Of a stretch of 64,000 bases of DNA, positions 1,741-7,873 are shown one piece after another. This DNA is from Arenimonas maotaiensis. GTDB lineage: Bacteria > Pseudomonadota > Gammaproteobacteria > Xanthomonadales > Xanthomonadaceae. The stretch covers positions 372,001 to 436,000 of the forward strand of contig NZ_BMFO01000001.1 of the NCBI RefSeq assembly GCF_014638745.1, written 5' to 3'. Each line of letters begins with the position of its first letter. The first letter of the stretch is position 1. Position numbers and translations under genes: made by a program. Under the pieces are notes generated by a model. The model was not told where the DNA came from and made no database searches. It saw only the letters and a program-made list of their open reading frames with translations.

Positions 1741-1782
1741 TTGACTGTGGTCAATGCGTGACAGGCCTTGCCGAAGTATGAT
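1741..1782 (+). promoter_or_regulatory. FNR/Anr-type site with correctly spaced -10 element, class II arrangement
   Basis: TTGACTGTGGTCAA (1741-1754) is a perfect inverted repeat matching the FNR/Anr consensus TTGAYnnnnRTCAA. An exact -10-like TATGAT lies at 1777-1782. Taking that hexamer as -12 to -7 puts the transcription start near 1789 and the centre of the site at -41.5, the classical position for FNR-activated class II promoters. The first start codon of the redox operon is at 1791, so the mRNA would be almost leaderless. This predicts induction of the reductase/decaheme operon at low oxygen. Confidence 0.65.
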
Positions 1783-1790
1783 GGCAGGGT

Positions 1791-3002
1791 ATGACCGCCG
1801 CGAAACTCACGCTGATCATCGTCTCCGCCTTGACGCTGCAAGTGCTGCTGTTTGCCGCCTATGCGTTGTGGCGGCGCGTGCGCGCACCGAAGCCAACGCC
1901 CGCCCCCGTGGCCACACCGGCAAAAACTCCGGCTGGATGGGATGGCTGGCGGGCACTGCGCGTGGTCCGGCGCGGATATGAAGACGCGGCCGGCACAATC
2001 TGCTCGTTTTATCTGGAAGCCGTCGATGGCGGCGAGTTGCCACCCTTCCTGCCCGGCCAATACCTGACGTTCAAGGCGCCGCCGGCGGCGGACGGCAAAG
2101 CGCGCACCCGCTGCTATTCGCTGTCGGACAACGGCGACGGCCGGCGTTACCGCATCAGCGTCAAGCGCGTGCCATGGGATGCGCAACCGGGCCCGCCGAT
2201 GCCGGTCTCGGTGCATTTGCACGAACAGCTGCAGGTCGGCGATACGATCATGGCGCGTGCGCCGATGGGCCGCTTCACGCTGGATACCGGATCCGATACG
2301 CCGGTGGTGCTGATCGCCGGCGGCATCGGCATCACGCCGCTGCTGTGCATGCTGCAATGGCTGCTGGCCAACCGGCCGCAGCGACCGGTGCATCTGTTCT
2401 ACGGCGCCCGCAACGCTCGTGAAATGGCGTTCCGCAACCTGATCGAGGACTGGGCCGCGCGCCATCCGCACTTCAAACGGCATCTGCTGTTCGACAGCCC
2501 GGAACCCGGCGACTCGGATCTACCGGGCGTGCGCGATGGCCGTTTCATCACCATCGAACTGCTGCAGCGGCAACTGCCCTACGGGCCGGCGCAGTTCTAC
2601 CTGTGCGGCCCGAACGCGATGATGCAGGCGATGACCGACGGTCTGCGCGGTTGGGGTGTGGCGGCGAAAGACATCCATCTGGAAGCCTTCGGACCCTCGG
2701 CGCTGACCAACGCCGCGCCAGTCGAAGCGCCGGTCGATAACGCGACTACGTATCCCGTCACCTTCACCCGATCCGGCGTCAACGCGGTCTGGGACGGACG
2801 CGATGCCAGTCTGCTGGAACTGTCCGAGCGCGTCGGCGTGGAGATCGCCAACGCCTGCCGTGCCGGCAACTGCGGCACCTGCGAAACCAAAATCGGCAAA
2901 GGCGACGTAATCTACCCGGAGCCGCCGGACTTCCCGGTACAGGACGGCCATTGCCTGCCCTGCGTCTGCCGGCCGGCCGGCGAGCTAGCGTTGGAGGCCT
3001 GA
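1791..3002 (+). CDS. Membrane-anchored FAD/NAD(P)H and 2Fe-2S oxidoreductase
   Basis: 403 aa. Residues 5-28 form one hydrophobic segment followed by basic residues (WRRVR), which predicts a cytoplasmic globular part. A ferredoxin-NADP-reductase-type module follows: an RCYSLSD flavin motif near 105 and a GGIGITPLL pyridine-nucleotide motif near 165-175. The last 90 residues are a plant-type 2Fe-2S ferredoxin domain with Cys356, Cys361, Cys364 and a fourth cysteine in the CLPCVC segment (388-393). The architecture resembles Hcr and oxygenase reductases. It would take electrons from NAD(P)H and pass them through FAD and 2Fe-2S. The next gene starts 1 nt after its stop, so the inferred partner is the membrane protein at 3004 and then the decaheme cytochrome. 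Confidence 0.85.
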   Translation: MTAAKLTLIIVSALTLQVLLFAAYALWRRVRAPKPTPAPVATPAKTPAGWDGWRALRVVRRGYEDAAGTICSFYLEAVDGGELPPFLPGQYLTFKAPPAADGKARTRCYSLSDNGDGRRYRISVKRVPWDAQPGPPMPVSVHLHEQLQVGDTIMARAPMGRFTLDTGSDTPVVLIAGGIGITPLLCMLQWLLANRPQRPVHLFYGARNAREMAFRNLIEDWAARHPHFKRHLLFDSPEPGDSDLPGVRDGRFITIELLQRQLPYGPAQFYLCGPNAMMQAMTDGLRGWGVAAKDIHLEAFGPSALTNAAPVEAPVDNATTYPVTFTRSGVNAVWDGRDASLLELSERVGVEIANACRAGNCGTCETKIGKGDVIYPEPPDFPVQDGHCLPCVCRPAGELALEA

Positions 3003-3003
3003 G

Positions 3004-3573
3004 ATGCAAGCGCACCTGATCCGCACCGTGGTGTTGCCGTTCCTGATCTGGTTCGTCGGTCTGGCGTTGGCCACGCTGCTTTCCGACCGGCTGTTGCACC
3101 AGCTCGATCTGGTCTGGGTCGGGCGCTATCTGGGCATTCCCGGCACGCTGCTGATCATCGGCTCGTTCGGTTATTCGCTGGCCAAACGCCGCAAAATCAA
3201 GACCCGCAGTCTGCCGCGCCTGCTGTCCTACCACGAAGTGCTGGCCTGGCTGGGTTCGCTGATGGTGCTGGTGCACGCCGGCGTGCACTTCAACGCCATC
3301 CTCGGCTGGTTGGCGGTGGCCGCCATGCTGGTCAACGTGGCCAGCGGCCTGACTGGCAAGTTCCTGATAAAACGCGCGCGCGAACGCATGCGCCAGGCCG
3401 GTGAAAGCCCGGCCGGACCCGATGGCGAGGCCGGATCCGGCCACTTCTGGGACAGCTTGACCGTGGACGCCGTGACCCAATGGCGCAAGGTGCACTTCCC
3501 GATCGCGTTCGCGTTCGGTTTCCTGGCCTTGGCGCACATCATCAGCATTTTCCTGTTCTGGGGTTGGCGATGA
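3004..3573 (+). CDS. Small histidine-containing membrane protein, candidate b-type cytochrome
   Basis: 189 aa with about four hydrophobic segments (near 8-26, 42-60, 78-112 and 165-187). Histidines 77, 91, 95, 164 and 178 lie in or at the ends of these segments, and the pairs His91/His95 and His164/His178 could coordinate haem in the membrane. This resembles the four-helix ferric-reductase/cytochrome b fold, but I recognise no specific family. It sits between the flavo-iron-sulfur reductase and the decaheme cytochrome gene and overlaps the latter by an ATGA. The inferred role is to carry electrons across the inner membrane. Haem binding is a prediction only. Confidence 0.6.
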   Translation: MQAHLIRTVVLPFLIWFVGLALATLLSDRLLHQLDLVWVGRYLGIPGTLLIIGSFGYSLAKRRKIKTRSLPRLLSYHEVLAWLGSLMVLVHAGVHFNAILGWLAVAAMLVNVASGLTGKFLIKRARERMRQAGESPAGPDGEAGSGHFWDSLTVDAVTQWRKVHFPIAFAFGFLALAHIISIFLFWGWR

Positions 3574-4448
3574 ACAAGCGCACCGTACTGTATGTGATCG
3601 CGGCCAACGTGCTGGCGCTGATCGCGCTGACCTTCATCTACCCTGAGTTCATGGTCAGCCCGGGCAGTACCGGCGCCGCGCACGCCACGCTAGGCAATGA
3701 CTGCTTCGCCTGCCATCAGCCGTTCCTGGGCGCCTCGGAAGCGCGCTGCCAGAGCTGCCACGCACTGGCCGATATCGGCATCAAGGACACCCAGGGCCGG
3801 CCGTTGGCGCGCAAGGGCAAGACCGCGAAATTCCACCACGCGTTGGCGAACCCGGACTGCATGGGCTGCCACAGCATCCACCGGGGCTCGAAGCTGACCC
3901 AAGGCGACATCCGGCGGTTCTCGCATGATCTGCTGCCGGCCGATATCCGGCAGGATTGCGCGTCCTGCCATACGAAACCGACCAACGCCCTGCACCGGCC
4001 GCTGACCGCCAACTGCGGCGCCTGCCACAGCAGCGAAGCCTGGAAGCCGGCTCAGTTCAGCCATGCAAGCCTGCCGAAAACGGCGCTGGCGCAGTGCCAG
4101 AGCTGCCATGAAAAACCGCAGGACCGCATGCATCGGCCGTTCACCGGCAATTGCGGCAGCTGCCACAGCACCACGGCCTGGGAGCCGGCCACCTTCAACC
4201 ACAACCGCTACTTCGTGCTGGACAAGGACCACAACACCGACTGCGCCACCTGCCATACCGGCAATCTACGCGGCATCGGCGGCACGGATTTCAAACAGTA
4301 CACCTGCTACGGCTGCCACGAGCACACACCGGCCAAGATCCGCGCCGAGCATCTGGAGGAAGGCATCCGCAACTTCAACAACTGCGTGAAATGCCACCGC
4401 GATCCGCGCGTGGAGCCCGAAGGCTACGGCGAATCCGGCGACGACTAG
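3570..4448 (+). CDS. Membrane-anchored decaheme c-type cytochrome
   Basis: 292 aa. An N-terminal hydrophobic segment (6-24) without a clear cleavage site anchors a periplasmic domain with ten CxxCH haem-binding motifs, starting at Cys45, 60, 97, 130, 149, 176, 194, 225, 246 and 272. Residues 130-168 and 176-212 are an internal duplication (CxxCH, HRPxT, NCGxCH, AWxPAxF), typical of cytochrome c3/doubled-CXXCH families. The ATG at 3570 overlaps the upstream stop (ATGA). With its two upstream genes and the FNR-type promoter, the inferred role is a periplasmic electron carrier for anaerobic reduction of a terminal reductase or an extracellular acceptor. No outer-membrane porin or terminal reductase gene is adjacent. 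Confidence 0.85.
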   Translation: MNKRTVLYVIAANVLALIALTFIYPEFMVSPGSTGAAHATLGNDCFACHQPFLGASEARCQSCHALADIGIKDTQGRPLARKGKTAKFHHALANPDCMGCHSIHRGSKLTQGDIRRFSHDLLPADIRQDCASCHTKPTNALHRPLTANCGACHSSEAWKPAQFSHASLPKTALAQCQSCHEKPQDRMHRPFTGNCGSCHSTTAWEPATFNHNRYFVLDKDHNTDCATCHTGNLRGIGGTDFKQYTCYGCHEHTPAKIRAEHLEEGIRNFNNCVKCHRDPRVEPEGYGESGDD

Positions 4449-4531: not shown

Positions 4532-4888
4532 ATGTACGTCGACGGATTCCTGACCCCGGTGAAGAAGGACAAACTCGCCGATTACAAGAAGATGGCCCGC
4601 GCCTGCGGCAAGATCTGGAAGGAACACGGCGCGTTGCAGTATCTGGAGGCCGTGGCCGACGACGCGCCGTACGGCAAGCGCACCTCGTTCCCGCGCGCGG
4701 TGAAGCTGCAGGATGACGAGGTGGTGGTGTTCGCCTACGTGCTGTACACCAGCCGCAAGGAACGCGACCGCATCATGAACGCGGTGATGACCGACAAGCG
4801 CCTGGCCAAGTTCATGGATCCGAAAACGCTGCCGTTCGACGGCAAGCGCATGATCTGGGGCGGATTCAAGGAAATCGTGGGCTACTGA
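4532..4888 (+). CDS. DUF1428 (YbaA-like) protein
   Basis: 118 aa, a typical full-length member of DUF1428, a family with a ferredoxin-like alpha/beta dimer fold and no established function. It is recognised from the start MYVDGFLTPV, the central FPRAV and VVFAYV strands and the MIWGGF near the C-terminus. A clear Shine-Dalgarno (AACGGAGAA) precedes the ATG. It stands alone between the cytochrome operon and a convergent secreted-protein gene. Its stop codon and the convergent gene's stop codon sit inside one 14-bp palindrome (4885-4898). Confidence 0.8.
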   Translation: MYVDGFLTPVKKDKLADYKKMARACGKIWKEHGALQYLEAVADDAPYGKRTSFPRAVKLQDDEVVVFAYVLYTSRKERDRIMNAVMTDKRLAKFMDPKTLPFDGKRMIWGGFKEIVGY

Positions 4889-4894
4889 GCCGGC

Positions 4895-5383
4895 TCAGTT
4901 GATGAGGTACACCCGCGCCTTCGGGTAATCCTCATGCACTTCCAGGAACCAGCGCCCGGCGATGCCGGGCACCACGCGCACGTCGGGGCTCTGCATCGGC
5001 TTGGGCAAGGTCATGTAGCCCTTCAGCACTTTCCACTGCTGGCCGTTTTCCAGCTCGAACACCGTGCCTTCCTGCCAACCGGTGATGGTGCCTTTCAAGC
5101 GGCTTCGGATCGGCTCCACGGTAAAGCCGAGCAGCGGTGTATCGACTTTCGACGGCATCTGCGCCACCGGGGCAGGCGGCGCCTCGATCTGCTTCGCGAT
5201 GGTTTCGCCCTGCAACACGCGGTTCAGCGCGGCTAATTGCTCGGCCGAGAGCGTGTCGAGCCCGGTTTCGCGCAGCTGTTCGGCGCTCAGGCGCTGTTCC
5301 AGCGGCACATAGGGCGCGGCGGCGGATGCAACGCCGCAGAGTGCGAACACTAAAGCAAAAATAAAGAATCGGAAGGCGGCCAT
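4895..5383 (-). CDS. Putative secreted protein of unknown function
   Basis: 162 aa. Residues 1-22 look like a Sec signal peptide with an ASA-A cleavage region, so the mature protein is probably periplasmic. A helical segment (about 30-65, SAEQL repeated) is followed by a beta-rich C-terminal half containing FELENGQQWKV, a pattern seen in many small xanthomonad secreted proteins of unknown function. I recognise no domain. It is monocistronic by spacing. An inverted repeat (5388-5408) lies immediately upstream of its start. Confidence 0.6.
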   Translation of the reverse strand: MAAFRFFIFALVFALCGVASAAAPYVPLEQRLSAEQLRETGLDTLSAEQLAALNRVLQGETIAKQIEAPPAPVAQMPSKVDTPLLGFTVEPIRSRLKGTITGWQEGTVFELENGQQWKVLKGYMTLPKPMQSPDVRVVPGIAGRWFLEVHEDYPKARVYLIN

Positions 5384-5387
5384 GACG

Positions 5388-5408
5388 TCACATCAATTTA
5401 AGATGTGA
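5388..5408. repeat. Inverted repeat upstream of the secreted-protein gene
   Basis: TCACATC-N7-GATGTGA has 7-bp perfect arms and lies 4 bp upstream of the start codon of the gene at 5383. It could be an operator or a 5' hairpin. The arms are in the opposite order to a CRP/Clp site (TGTGA-N6-TCACA), so it is not called as one. Confidence 0.35.
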
Positions 5409-5453
5409 CCAGTCTATGACGATTTTGTGACGGATTTGTGTCGGATCCGAAGA

Positions 5454-5479
5454 TAGGCTGGGTTATGTAACCCAGGCTA
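5454..5479. repeat. Short intergenic palindrome (REP-like) downstream of hutU
   Basis: TAGGCTGGGTTA-TG-TAACCCAGGCTA has 12-bp arms with one mismatch and lies just downstream of the hutU stop. The GTAGCC(T/C)GGGT... ACCC(A/G)GGCTAC pattern resembles short intergenic repeats found in many gammaproteobacteria. On the hutU strand it would form a hairpin but has no U-tract, so it may be a 3'-end stabiliser and not a terminator. Only one copy was found by eye in this window. Confidence 0.4.
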
Positions 5480-5492
5480 CGGTCTTGGCGAA

Positions 5493-7160
5493 TTACAGCA
5501 TTGGCAACTTCAAACCCTTCTCTTTGGCACAATCCACGGCAATCTCATAACCCGCATCGGCATGGCGCATCACACCCGTGCCCGGATCGTTCCACAGCAC
5601 ACGCGCCAGGCGCTTGGCCGCGGCCTCGGTGCCGTCGGCCACGATGACCACGCCCGAGTGCTGCGAATAGCCCATGCCCACGCCGCCGCCATGATGCAGC
5701 GACACCCAGGTGGCGCCGCCTGCCACGTTCAGCATGGCGTTCAGCAGCGGCCAGTCGGACACGGCGTCGGAGCCGTCTTTCATCGCTTCGGTCTCGCGGT
5801 TGGGCGAAGCCACCGAACCGGAGTCCAGATGGTCGCGGCCGATCACGATCGGTGCCTTCAGCTCGCCCTTGGCCACCATCTCGTTGAACGCCAGCGCTAA
5901 GCGGTGGCGGTCGCCCAGGCCCACCCAGCAGATGCGCGCCGGCAGGCCTTGGAAGGCGATGCGCTCCTTGGCCATGTCCAGCCAACGGTGCAGGTGCGGA
6001 TCGTTCGGGATCAGCTCCTTCACCTTGGCGTCGGTCTTGGCGATGTCGTCCGGGTCGCCGCTCAGCGCCACCCAGCGGAACGGGCCGACGCCGCGGCAGA
6101 ACAGCGGCCGCACGTAGGCCGGCACGAAGCCGGGGAAATCGAAGGCGTCCGCGCAGCCCACGTCCTTGGCCATCTGGCGGATGTTGTTGCCGTAGTCGAA
6201 CACCGGAATGCCCATGTTCTGGAAGTGCAGCATGGCCTCCACGTGCACGCGCATGGAGTGCTTGGCGGCGTCCACCACCTTGGCCGGACTGTGCTTTTGC
6301 TCGTCCAGGTACTGCTCCCAGGTCCAGCCGGCCGGCAGGTAGCCGTGCAGCGGATCGTGGGCGCTGGTCTGGTCGGTCACCGCGTCCGGGCGAACGCCGC
6401 GGCGCACCAGTTCCGGCAGGATCTCGGCGGCGTTGCCGAGCAGCGCCACCGATACCGCCTTGCCGTCGGCGCAGTATTTTTCGATCCGCGCCAAGGCGTC
6501 GTCCAAATCGGTCGCCTGCTCGTCCACGTAGCGCGTGCGCAGGCGCATGTCGATGCGCGACTGCTGACATTCGATGTTCAGCGAACAGGCGCCGGCCATG
6601 CTCGCGGCCAACGGCTGCGCGCCGCCCATGCCGCCCAGGCCCGCGGTCAGGATCCACTTGCCGGTCAAATCGCCGCCGTAGTGCTGGCGGCCCATTTCCA
6701 CGAAGGTCTCGTAGGTGCCCTGCACGATGCCCTGCGAGCCGATGTAGATCCACGAACCGGCGGTCATCTGGCCGTACATCATCAGGCCTTTCTTATCGAG
6801 CTCGTTGAAGTGCTCCCAGGTGGCCCAGTGCGGCACCAGGTTGGAATTGGCCAGCAGCACGCGCGGCGCATCCGGGTGCGAGGGGAACACGCCGACCGGC
6901 TTGCCGCTCTGCACCAGCAGGGTCTCGTCGTCGTTCAGCGCCTTCAGGCTGTCGAGGATGGCGTCGAAGCAGGCCCAATCGCGCGCGGCGCGGCCGATGC
7001 CGCCGTACACCACCAGACCCTGCGGGTTCTCGGCCACCTCCGGGTCCAGATTGTTCTGGATCATGCGGAACGCGGCTTCGCTCAGCCAGGATTTGCAGGA
7101 CAGTTCGGCACCGCGCGGGGCGCGGATGACGCGGGTGGCGTCGAAACGGGGATCGGACAT
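5493..7160 (-). CDS. hutU: Urocanate hydratase
   Basis: 555 aa, the standard length for the family. HutU adds water to urocanate to give imidazolone propionate, the second step of histidine degradation, using tightly bound NAD as an electrophile. The glycine-rich [12 protein letters not shown] stretch (about 171-182) is the dinucleotide-binding motif. The conserved [10 protein letters not shown] around 410 and the C-terminal [13 protein letters not shown] are also present. The ATG at 7160 has a Shine-Dalgarno CTGGAG. A TATACT -10-like hexamer (7187-7192, minus strand) suggests its own promoter behind the DUF1275 gene. hutH is not in this window. Confidence 0.96.
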
Positions 7161-7201
7161 GGCGGGCGCTCCAGAAAGAGGCCCTTAGTATAAACCGCGG
7201 G

Positions 7202-7873
7202 CTAGCCGCCCTGCCCGGCCGTGCGCCAGCGGTAGCCGGCATACACCAGCGCCAATCCGGCCGCCAGACCGGCCGGCACATACAGCACGCCGAAGCCCCA
7301 CGGCTGGAAGCCGAGCGCGCCGCTGACGCCGCCGGCGACGAAGCCGCCGATCACGGTCAGGCTGATGATCACGCGCCGGCGCTCGACCGGTGCCCGGCGC
7401 AGCAGATGGCCGAAGTAGATGCCCAGATCGGTGAACATGCCGGTCACGTGCGAGGTGCGGATGACCGTGCCGCTGAAGGTGGTGGCCATGGCGTTCTGTA
7501 GGCCGCAGGCCAGGCCGGCCAGATAGATGCCGAGGTTGGCGCCGTCCTGCAGGTAGCGCACGGCCAGGATCAGCACCGCCGATTCCATCAGCAGCGCCAC
7601 GCCGTAGCGCCGGCCCAGACGCAGGATGCTGTCGCCGATGATCAGGCCGCTGAGCGCGGCGCCGGCGAAGAACGAGCCGAGCACGGCCAGCAGATGCAGC
7701 GCCATGCCGCCCTGCCCGCCGGCCAAGGCGGCGCTGAGCAAAGTGGTGGTGCCGGTCAGATGGGTGACGGCCTGATGTTCGAAGCTGAGGAAGCCGACCA
7801 CGTTGATGATGCCGGCCATGAACGCCAACAGCGCGGCATACACTAGCACCCAGCGCGGCAGCCGCGTGATCAT
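7202..7873 (-). CDS. DUF1275 (YoaK-type) membrane protein
   Basis: 223 aa with about six membrane segments. It begins with LVYAALLAFMAGIINVVG and contains FLSFEHQAVTHLTG, the signature of DUF1275/YoaK proteins, whose function is unestablished although transport has been proposed. The ATG at 7873 overlaps the hutF stop (ATGA), so it is translationally coupled to hutF. It also precedes hutU by 41 nt. Its place between two histidine-utilisation genes suggests a role in uptake or efflux of a hut intermediate, but this is inference from position only. Confidence 0.8.
   Translation of the reverse strand: MITRLPRWVLVYAALLAFMAGIINVVGFLSFEHQAVTHLTGTTTLLSAALAGGQGGMALHLLAVLGSFFAGAALSGLIIGDSILRLGRRYGVALLMESAVLILAVRYLQDGANLGIYLAGLACGLQNAMATTFSGTVIRTSHVTGMFTDLGIYFGHLLRRAPVERRRVIISLTVIGGFVAGGVSGALGFQPWGFGVLYVPAGLAAGLALVYAGYRWRTAGQGG

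Follow-up and report, generated by a model that had tools for sequence, protein, structure and literature searches.

A reductase, a small membrane protein and a multihaem cytochrome encoded together in Arenimonas maotaiensis: a candidate route for electrons from NAD(P)H to the periplasm

Where would electrons enter, and where would they leave, a set of three nearly overlapping genes that encode a flavin reductase (RED), a small membrane protein (MEMB) and a multihaem cytochrome c (CYT)? This question is raised by positions 1,741 to 4,448 of a 64,000-nucleotide stretch of Arenimonas maotaiensis DNA (contig NZ_BMFO01000001.1, positions 372,001 to 436,000, forward strand), the whole of which we call the window. 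An initial annotation of this DNA had described the genes as an FNR-controlled electron-transfer module and as a candidate for an undescribed respiratory system. From gene order, motifs, conservation and an FNR box, all of which can be read in the sequence, we infer the cofactors, haem pairing, direction and regulation of the module. The reading that we favour, with somewhat better than even confidence, is that of a split NAD(P)H:multihaem cytochrome oxidoreductase, similar to NADPH oxidase (NOX) and ferric reductase or to Fre-MsrQ, which would move electrons outward, have a multihaem cytochrome c as its outer end and bypass the quinone pool.

The compact arrangement noted earlier is borne out, as an exact FNR-type palindrome is followed by RED, by MEMB, which begins 1 nt past the RED stop codon, and by CYT, which overlaps MEMB by 4 nt. 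On the basis of Pfam matches, motifs and hydropathy, RED (positions 1,791 to 3,002, + strand, 403 amino acids) is predicted to be a membrane-anchored NAD(P)H-type reductase with FAD and a plant-type 2Fe-2S cluster. The membrane-anchored FAD/2Fe-2S reductase of the initial annotation is thus confirmed, since FAD_binding_6, NAD_binding_1 and Fer2 all score above their Pfam cut-offs and the hydropathy plot displays one hydrophobic helix at the N-terminus. This helix is followed by arginines, a pattern which suggests that the soluble part of RED is cytoplasmic. Its nearest sequence relatives in the PDB are flavohaemoproteins and dioxygenase reductases, and it remains below every NCBIfam cut-off among the matches listed. 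Across six aligned RED proteins, what we take to be the FAD, NAD and Cys motifs are invariant.

MEMB (positions 3,004 to 3,573, + strand) is probably a five-helix di-haem b protein, judging from its motifs, a sub-threshold DUF4405 match and a profile match. It carries two HX13H pairs (residues 77/91 and 164/178), a WX3H motif at residue 160 and an SGXXG motif at residue 114, and both HX13H pairs, the one WX3H before the second pair and the SGXXG between the pairs are kept in all ten MEMB proteins tested. According to a hydropathy-based helix assignment, the HX13H pairs lie on transmembrane helices (TM) 3 and 5 and SGXXG lies on TM4. The histidine-rich character noted in the initial annotation therefore stands, but its count of four helices does not, as MEMB looks like a five-helix protein both in the hydropathy plot and in a weak structure model. 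HX13H, WX3H and SGXXG are also the marks of the inner-membrane proteins of PCC3 and PCC4 clusters, which were compared with ferric reductases and NOX in the portion of He et al. 2017 available to us (PMC5566968). The tryptophan before the first HX13H (TM3) is missing in 10 of 10 MEMB proteins, so that the WX3HX13H string occurs once and not twice as in PCC3/PCC4. Two HX13H pairs are the signature by which di-haem b proteins are recognised among ferric reductases and PCC3/PCC4 inner-membrane proteins. The loops of MEMB rich in lysine and arginine (residues 61-72 and 119-130) would place His77 and His164 towards the cytoplasm and leave His91 and His178 facing outward.

As for known families, MEMB scores 21.1 bits with DUF4405 (PF14358), below the cut-off of 26.7, and 3 of 10 homologues match this family at E<=0.1; Ferric_reduct (PF01794) matched neither MEMB nor, at this same threshold, any of the 10 homologues. 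A profile of MEMB aligned with that of five PCC3-like membrane proteins (hhalign probability 98%, E 1.6e-14, 86 columns). We term these five PCC3-like on the criteria of adjoining large multihaem genes (the one in locus L065 is cut) and of HX13H pairs without variation among them, porins not being one of the criteria. In vitro binding of haem b is described for a DUF4405 protein and for FezC in PMC11334425. MEMB resembles them in being a small membrane protein with predicted haem b and a place in transmembrane electron transfer, but it differs in staying below the Pfam cut-off, and neither ApbE/flavinylation genes nor ferrosome genes were noticed next to the window copy.

CYT (positions 3,570 to 4,448, + strand, 292 amino acids, ten CxxCH motifs) appears, from profile matches, motif count and hydropathy, to be a periplasmic cytochrome of the c3/c7 type anchored by an N-terminal helix; the families matched are class III, c7 and c3. 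Within the gene we found a two-haem repeat (first copy at 3,957 to 4,085, second copy at 4,095 to 4,223, both on the + strand), the copies of which are 51% identical when aligned (22/43 residues), and the extra two-haem unit is missing from six 8-haem CYT proteins aligned. Among 35 loci read for gene order, namely the window locus and 34 relatives, CYT has 8 haems in 22, 10 in ten (window included) and 12 in two, and is cut by a contig end in one. As far as the alignments go, the haem number of CYT changes in two-haem units, and the term decahaem, correct for the window copy, does not hold for the module as a whole, where 8, 10 or 12 haems occur. Nine aligned CYT proteins have nine invariant histidines outside CxxCH for the eight haems that they share; this is enough for bis-His haems, and therefore CYT fits the role of an electron-transferring wire rather than that of a catalyst. 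Decahaem cytochromes of the MtrA/DmsE type in Shewanella have ten CxxCH as well and belong to the CymA route. CYT shares with them the ten motifs and a weak match to the DmsE model, but it is anchored, and neither a porin nor a NapC-type quinol-oxidising donor was seen. Its classification as a DmsE/MtrA decahaem (TIGR03508) was rejected at 25.9 bits against a curated cut-off of 192.2, and so was that as OmcA/MtrC, with a score far below the cut-off. No second match to CYT was found in the genome at E<=0.001, other multihaem types not having been searched genome-wide.

Taken together, the three proteins recall a known layout. In NADPH oxidases, ferric reductases and Fre-MsrQ(-MsrP), electrons pass from NAD(P)H to a flavin, then through two stacked haems b held by HX13H pairs, and finally to an acceptor outside. 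The module differs from NOX and ferric reductase in that the flavin would be bound by a protein of its own, which also has a 2Fe-2S domain, in that the outer end would be a multihaem cytochrome c, and in that PF01794 is unmatched. In the route that we propose, electrons of cytoplasmic NAD(P)H would pass to the FAD and then to the 2Fe-2S cluster of RED, from there to a cytoplasmic-side haem b of MEMB (His77/His164), further to a periplasmic-side haem b (His91/His178), and then along the haem chain of membrane-anchored CYT to a soluble acceptor in the periplasm. Passing electrons outward from NAD(P)H in the cytoplasm would spend membrane potential. Most likely, the module thus has a redox-balancing, metal-reducing or detoxifying role, and respiration with energy conservation would be improbable.

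The three-gene order, the conservation of which the initial annotation had left to a database search, recurs as a unit in many families. MEMB is followed by CYT in 35/35 loci, and RED lies directly upstream in 20 of them. A characterised terminal reductase, which according to the same annotation might have explained the genes, is not always adjacent (35 loci, mostly judged by eye; 25 of 137 families listed). The presence of RED clusters on the MEMB tree, requiring 6 changes, and none of 500 shuffles gave a number as low, a result which near-copies help. In two loci (L063, L116), RED is split into two reading frames, which means either a sequencing error or a broken gene. It is barely credible that RED serves an unrelated enzyme and stands beside MEMB and CYT by chance or operon convenience, since the same order occurs in 20/35 loci over many families and again in a divergent sister form; what speaks for it is that RED-like paralogues are present in other gene clusters. 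Two of these paralogues (L139, L142) lie in clusters with multihaem proteins and a protein of 593-600 amino acids (in L139 with cyclic-nucleotide-binding and Fer4 domains), and another (L143) is beside a protein with four CxxCH.

On the other hand, several observations weigh against RED as the general donor, or against our picture of MEMB. As many as 15/35 loci have no intact adjacent RED. Two of these (L004, L130) reach a contig end within 160 bp and one (L121) retains only an N-terminal piece of RED, yet four form a divergent clade; for these reasons MEMB and CYT seem able to run on another donor. In 13 genomes with such loci searched at E<=1e-40 (L002 and L004 left out), a RED-like gene was present elsewhere in 5 and absent in 8; among those five, RED is in another multihaem cluster in two, and a multihaem gene is beside it in a third. 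In one locus (L134) a b561 gene adjoins MEMB, and kinship of MEMB with b561 was rejected, as the profile comparison with the one b561 tried gave no match. Moreover, the AlphaFold model of MEMB, built from 4 sequences, has a pLDDT (predicted local distance difference test) of 57, too weak for haem geometry.

Such loci would suit a different reading, in which MEMB is a quinone-reactive cytochrome b. Quinol would then feed CYT, or CYT would feed the quinone pool, as proposed for PCC3/PCC4, and RED would be an accessory donor. The 15 loci without intact adjacent RED, the 8/13 such genomes without RED at the above threshold and the b561 of L134 all point this way, and He et al., in the sections available, propose quinone activity of HX13H membrane proteins (PMC5566968), which is a further argument against a quinone-free route. 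We nevertheless consider this reading unlikely, because RED is adjacent in 20/35 loci and clustered on the tree, and because flavin/Fe-S reductases of two unrelated folds accompany the more distant relatives of the module, which are described below.

The first of these relatives is the sister form, which consists of a RED with a longer N-terminus (560-693 amino acids), a MEMB of about 250 amino acids with HX13H kept and a 7-haem CYT. It is found on plasmids of Methylophaga pinxianii, Methylocystis rosea and Pontibacter actiniarum and also in genome G150, and a flavin/Fe-S reductase is present in 4/4 of these stretches. DUF1622 genes recur in two of the three plasmids (L146, L147, L148), with RND efflux or heavy-metal ATPase genes nearby. 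The second is the PCC3-like group, where a reductase with Fer4 and Pyr_redox domains is near the HX13H protein in 5/7 stretches (L066, L067, L068, L071 and L145, the last being an Emticicia oligotrophica plasmid); the domains are displayed for four of those five, and in those four an N-terminal helix is visible by eye. Neither reductase type is present in L065 and L070, both short stretches, and this counts against an NAD(P)H link. Complete cytochromes of the PCC3-like group carry 19 to 40 haems. That one membrane core meets two unrelated types of flavin/Fe-S reductase is the main reason why we prefer NAD(P)H to quinol. In a further stretch (L064, positions 4624-7354), a related membrane protein is beside a 560-amino-acid decahaem protein whose non-haem N-terminal part looks FHA-like by eye, with a distant Fer4/Pyr_redox match upstream; a Gallionellaceae study lists, in its accessible part, a 'Forkhead-associated protein' with 10 CXXCH.

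It needs to be mentioned that calling the module an undescribed respiratory system went too far, both because membrane potential would be spent and not built, and because this porin-less kind was noted in 2017 (PMC5566968). In the available sections, He et al. describe mostly porin-less clusters of iron oxidisers, unnamed and without a mechanism, in which a multihaem cytochrome stands with a short HX13H protein and mostly with another redox protein. As in the module, the haem number varies, the short five-helix protein with two HX13H is conserved and another redox protein is mostly present. They class these short porin-less proteins by HX13H only. The pairing given in their section 18, a multihaem gene beside a short HX13H protein, is what we see for MEMB and CYT in 35/35 loci, with RED in 20. 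The clusters differ from the module in gene order, as their membrane-protein gene is downstream of the cytochrome gene whereas MEMB is upstream, and section 18 is silent on mechanism, on FNR control and on any connection with NAD(P)H. With PCC3/PCC4, which are putative porin-cytochrome conduits, the module shares a related membrane-protein profile and a c3-type multihaem partner, but it differs in its reductase, in having no extracellular cytochrome and no porin seen beside it, and in its 8-12 haems against 17-28 in PCC3 of Sideroxydans ES-1 (PMC8788666, available portion). What is added here is the definition of the three-gene form, the steps in haem number, the FNR box of the genus carriers, the exchange of reductases and the nearby metal genes. 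No printed name for the three-gene module was found in the open-access library searched, supplements excluded.

The kinship with PCC3/PCC4 also raises the possibility of inward flow, in which CYT would take electrons from a periplasmic donor and RED would reduce NAD(P)+, as a lithotrophic input. PCC3 and PCC4, with their related-looking membrane proteins, were indeed proposed for extracellular donors such as Fe(II) (PMC5566968, in the part available). We regard inward flow as very unlikely, as for most donors it should be uphill against both redox and membrane potential, the FNR boxes of the genome lie by nitrate- and NO-reduction (NO, nitric oxide) genes, and MtrB_PioB has no match in the genome, other porin types not having been searched genome-wide.

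Regulation is the part of the outward NAD(P)H route for which the window itself offers a clue. The FNR/Anr-type palindrome TTGACTGTGGTCAA (positions 1,741 to 1,754, + strand) is an exact match, probably in a class II position, and a pattern search found it to be the sole exact FNR box of the window. With one mismatch allowed, the window contains 4 matches versus 2.3 expected, and 19 of 100 shuffles reach 4; as this is the chance level, the claim of an FNR site rests on the exact match. The genome (2.16 Mb) contains 21 exact palindromes versus 2 with a reversed control pattern, and at such a control rate, about 1 site per Mb, an exact box just 5' of a chosen gene is unlikely to occur by chance. 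A putative -10 hexamer, TATGAT (5/6; positions 1,777 to 1,782, + strand), was read by eye, and it would put the centre of the box at about -41.5 from the presumed transcription start; a generic promoter scan gave no promoter-like site at TATGAT.

The surroundings of the other 20 exact boxes of the genome were read as well. Exact boxes lie close 5' of narK, which narG adjoins, and 5' of hemN. Another coincides with the beginning of the ccoN reading frame, and one separates an Fnr-like gene from a norB-like gene; several further ones adjoin genes without an obvious anaerobic role, for example an aminotransferase. Judged by these neighbours, genes of nitrate and NO reduction belong to an FNR regulon in this organism. 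The genome encodes an Fnr-like protein with an N-terminal Cys cluster (NF008365, 195 bits, below the cut-off of 228), so that a regulator in the genome and a consensus box upstream are both found for the window module. In G008, a genome of the same genus, the exact box TTGATTGAGATCAA begins 47 bp before the RED start codon, compared with 50 bp for the window box, and this near-identical place is kept although the two RED proteins are only 41% identical; TTGATTGAGATCAA is the only exact site on its 3.3-kb contig, and one was present in 4/200 shuffles. Both module carriers found in the genus thus have an exact box (2/2). An exact box within 300 bp upstream was found in 0/32 other loci having upstream sequence (3 with just 157-256 bp), which rules out FNR control as a general trait of the module; L119, L129 and L133 have an FNR-like box matching 9/10 positions. 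The initial proposal of an FNR-controlled route from NAD(P)H to the periplasm is thus the best-supported reading, with a box that recurs in G008, but its FNR part does not extend to the module in general. Low oxygen is probably the condition under which FNR activates the module in this organism, along with genes for the reduction of nitrate and NO.

The module is scattered in its distribution. MEMB is found in full or nearly full length in 8/369 genomes of the class (52/369 when distant matches are counted) and at E<=1e-30 in 24/398 genomes of the phylum, the genome of the window being included in each count, and also in two metagenome-assembled genomes (MAGs) of Bacteroidota and one Nitrosomonadales MAG. 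Among 61 relatives (27 in the genus, counting the window's own genome), a close CYT is present only in that genome and in G008, where the module is split between two contigs, with RED and the beginning of MEMB running into the end of one and the end of CYT cut in the same way on the other; weaker matches occur in six more, one of which (G048) looks like the sister form. On the tree, three relatives that carry RED and come from two other families fall together with the window MEMB (support 97/94), and this grouping, together with the rarity of the module in the order, suggests horizontal transfer. A plasmid search with MEMB returned distant relatives only.

What remains to be considered is the acceptor, for which metal ions, for example Fe(III) complexes, are our leading guess. 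In a narrower form of the outward NAD(P)H route, compatible with it, periplasmic reduction would be specific to metal(loid) ions, Fe(III) complexes included, and tied to metal export or uptake. CDF exporters lie within 2 kb of 5/34 relatives, in some cases separated by one or two genes, and VIT1 is near 2/34, which gives 7/34 for CDF or VIT1 together; about 0.18 CDF would be expected within 3 kb either side (calculated from 3.6 CDF per genome, as counted in ten, with an assumed genome size of 4.0 Mb and complete flanks). Locus L132 has ArsP_1 with an adjoining ArsR-family gene, the sister form lies near a heavy-metal P-type ATPase, near RND efflux genes, or near a multicopper oxidase and a protein that matches Metal_resist below threshold, and FezC is a ferrosome cytochrome (PMC11334425, in the accessible part). 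This metal-specific form is possible and yet doubtful, as CDF was picked after looking, two of the five CDF loci come from one genus, the CDFs differ in their metal-site motifs and the nearest open reading frames (ORFs) scanned (108 of 176 picked ORFs) revealed no CDF or VIT1 near the other 27 relatives. Beside the window copy no metal gene was seen by eye, which likewise speaks against metal as the acceptor. The neighbours there are a peroxiredoxin, a DUF1428 protein and, by eye, an EamA-type transporter; in agreement with the initial annotation, no porin or terminal reductase was seen by eye among the adjoining ORFs. The peroxiredoxin (AhpC/TSA family, positions 177 to 797 of the window) has a long C-terminal tail rich in Lys, Ala and Pro, similar to histone H1.

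Tentatively, and with less confidence than for the window module itself, we propose that the module belongs to a widespread, horizontally moving class, in which an HX13H haem b core would be combined with interchangeable reductases (FAD/2Fe-2S or Fer4/Pyr_redox) and interchangeable c3-type chains (7-12, up to 20-40 haems), free of quinone and serving metal redox chemistry or detoxification. The bacterial routes known to carry electrons from metabolism into multihaem cytochromes of the periplasm, such as CymA and Imc/Cbc, take them from quinol. If real, a direct route from NAD(P)H would supply more strongly reducing electrons to the periplasm, and it would explain the role of the unassigned HX13H membrane proteins in PCC3-like clusters. 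Should the modular class hold, the reading of PCC3 would shift from quinone-linked to NAD(P)H-linked. With just three genes and an FNR box in the genus, the donor, direction and acceptor are directly testable.

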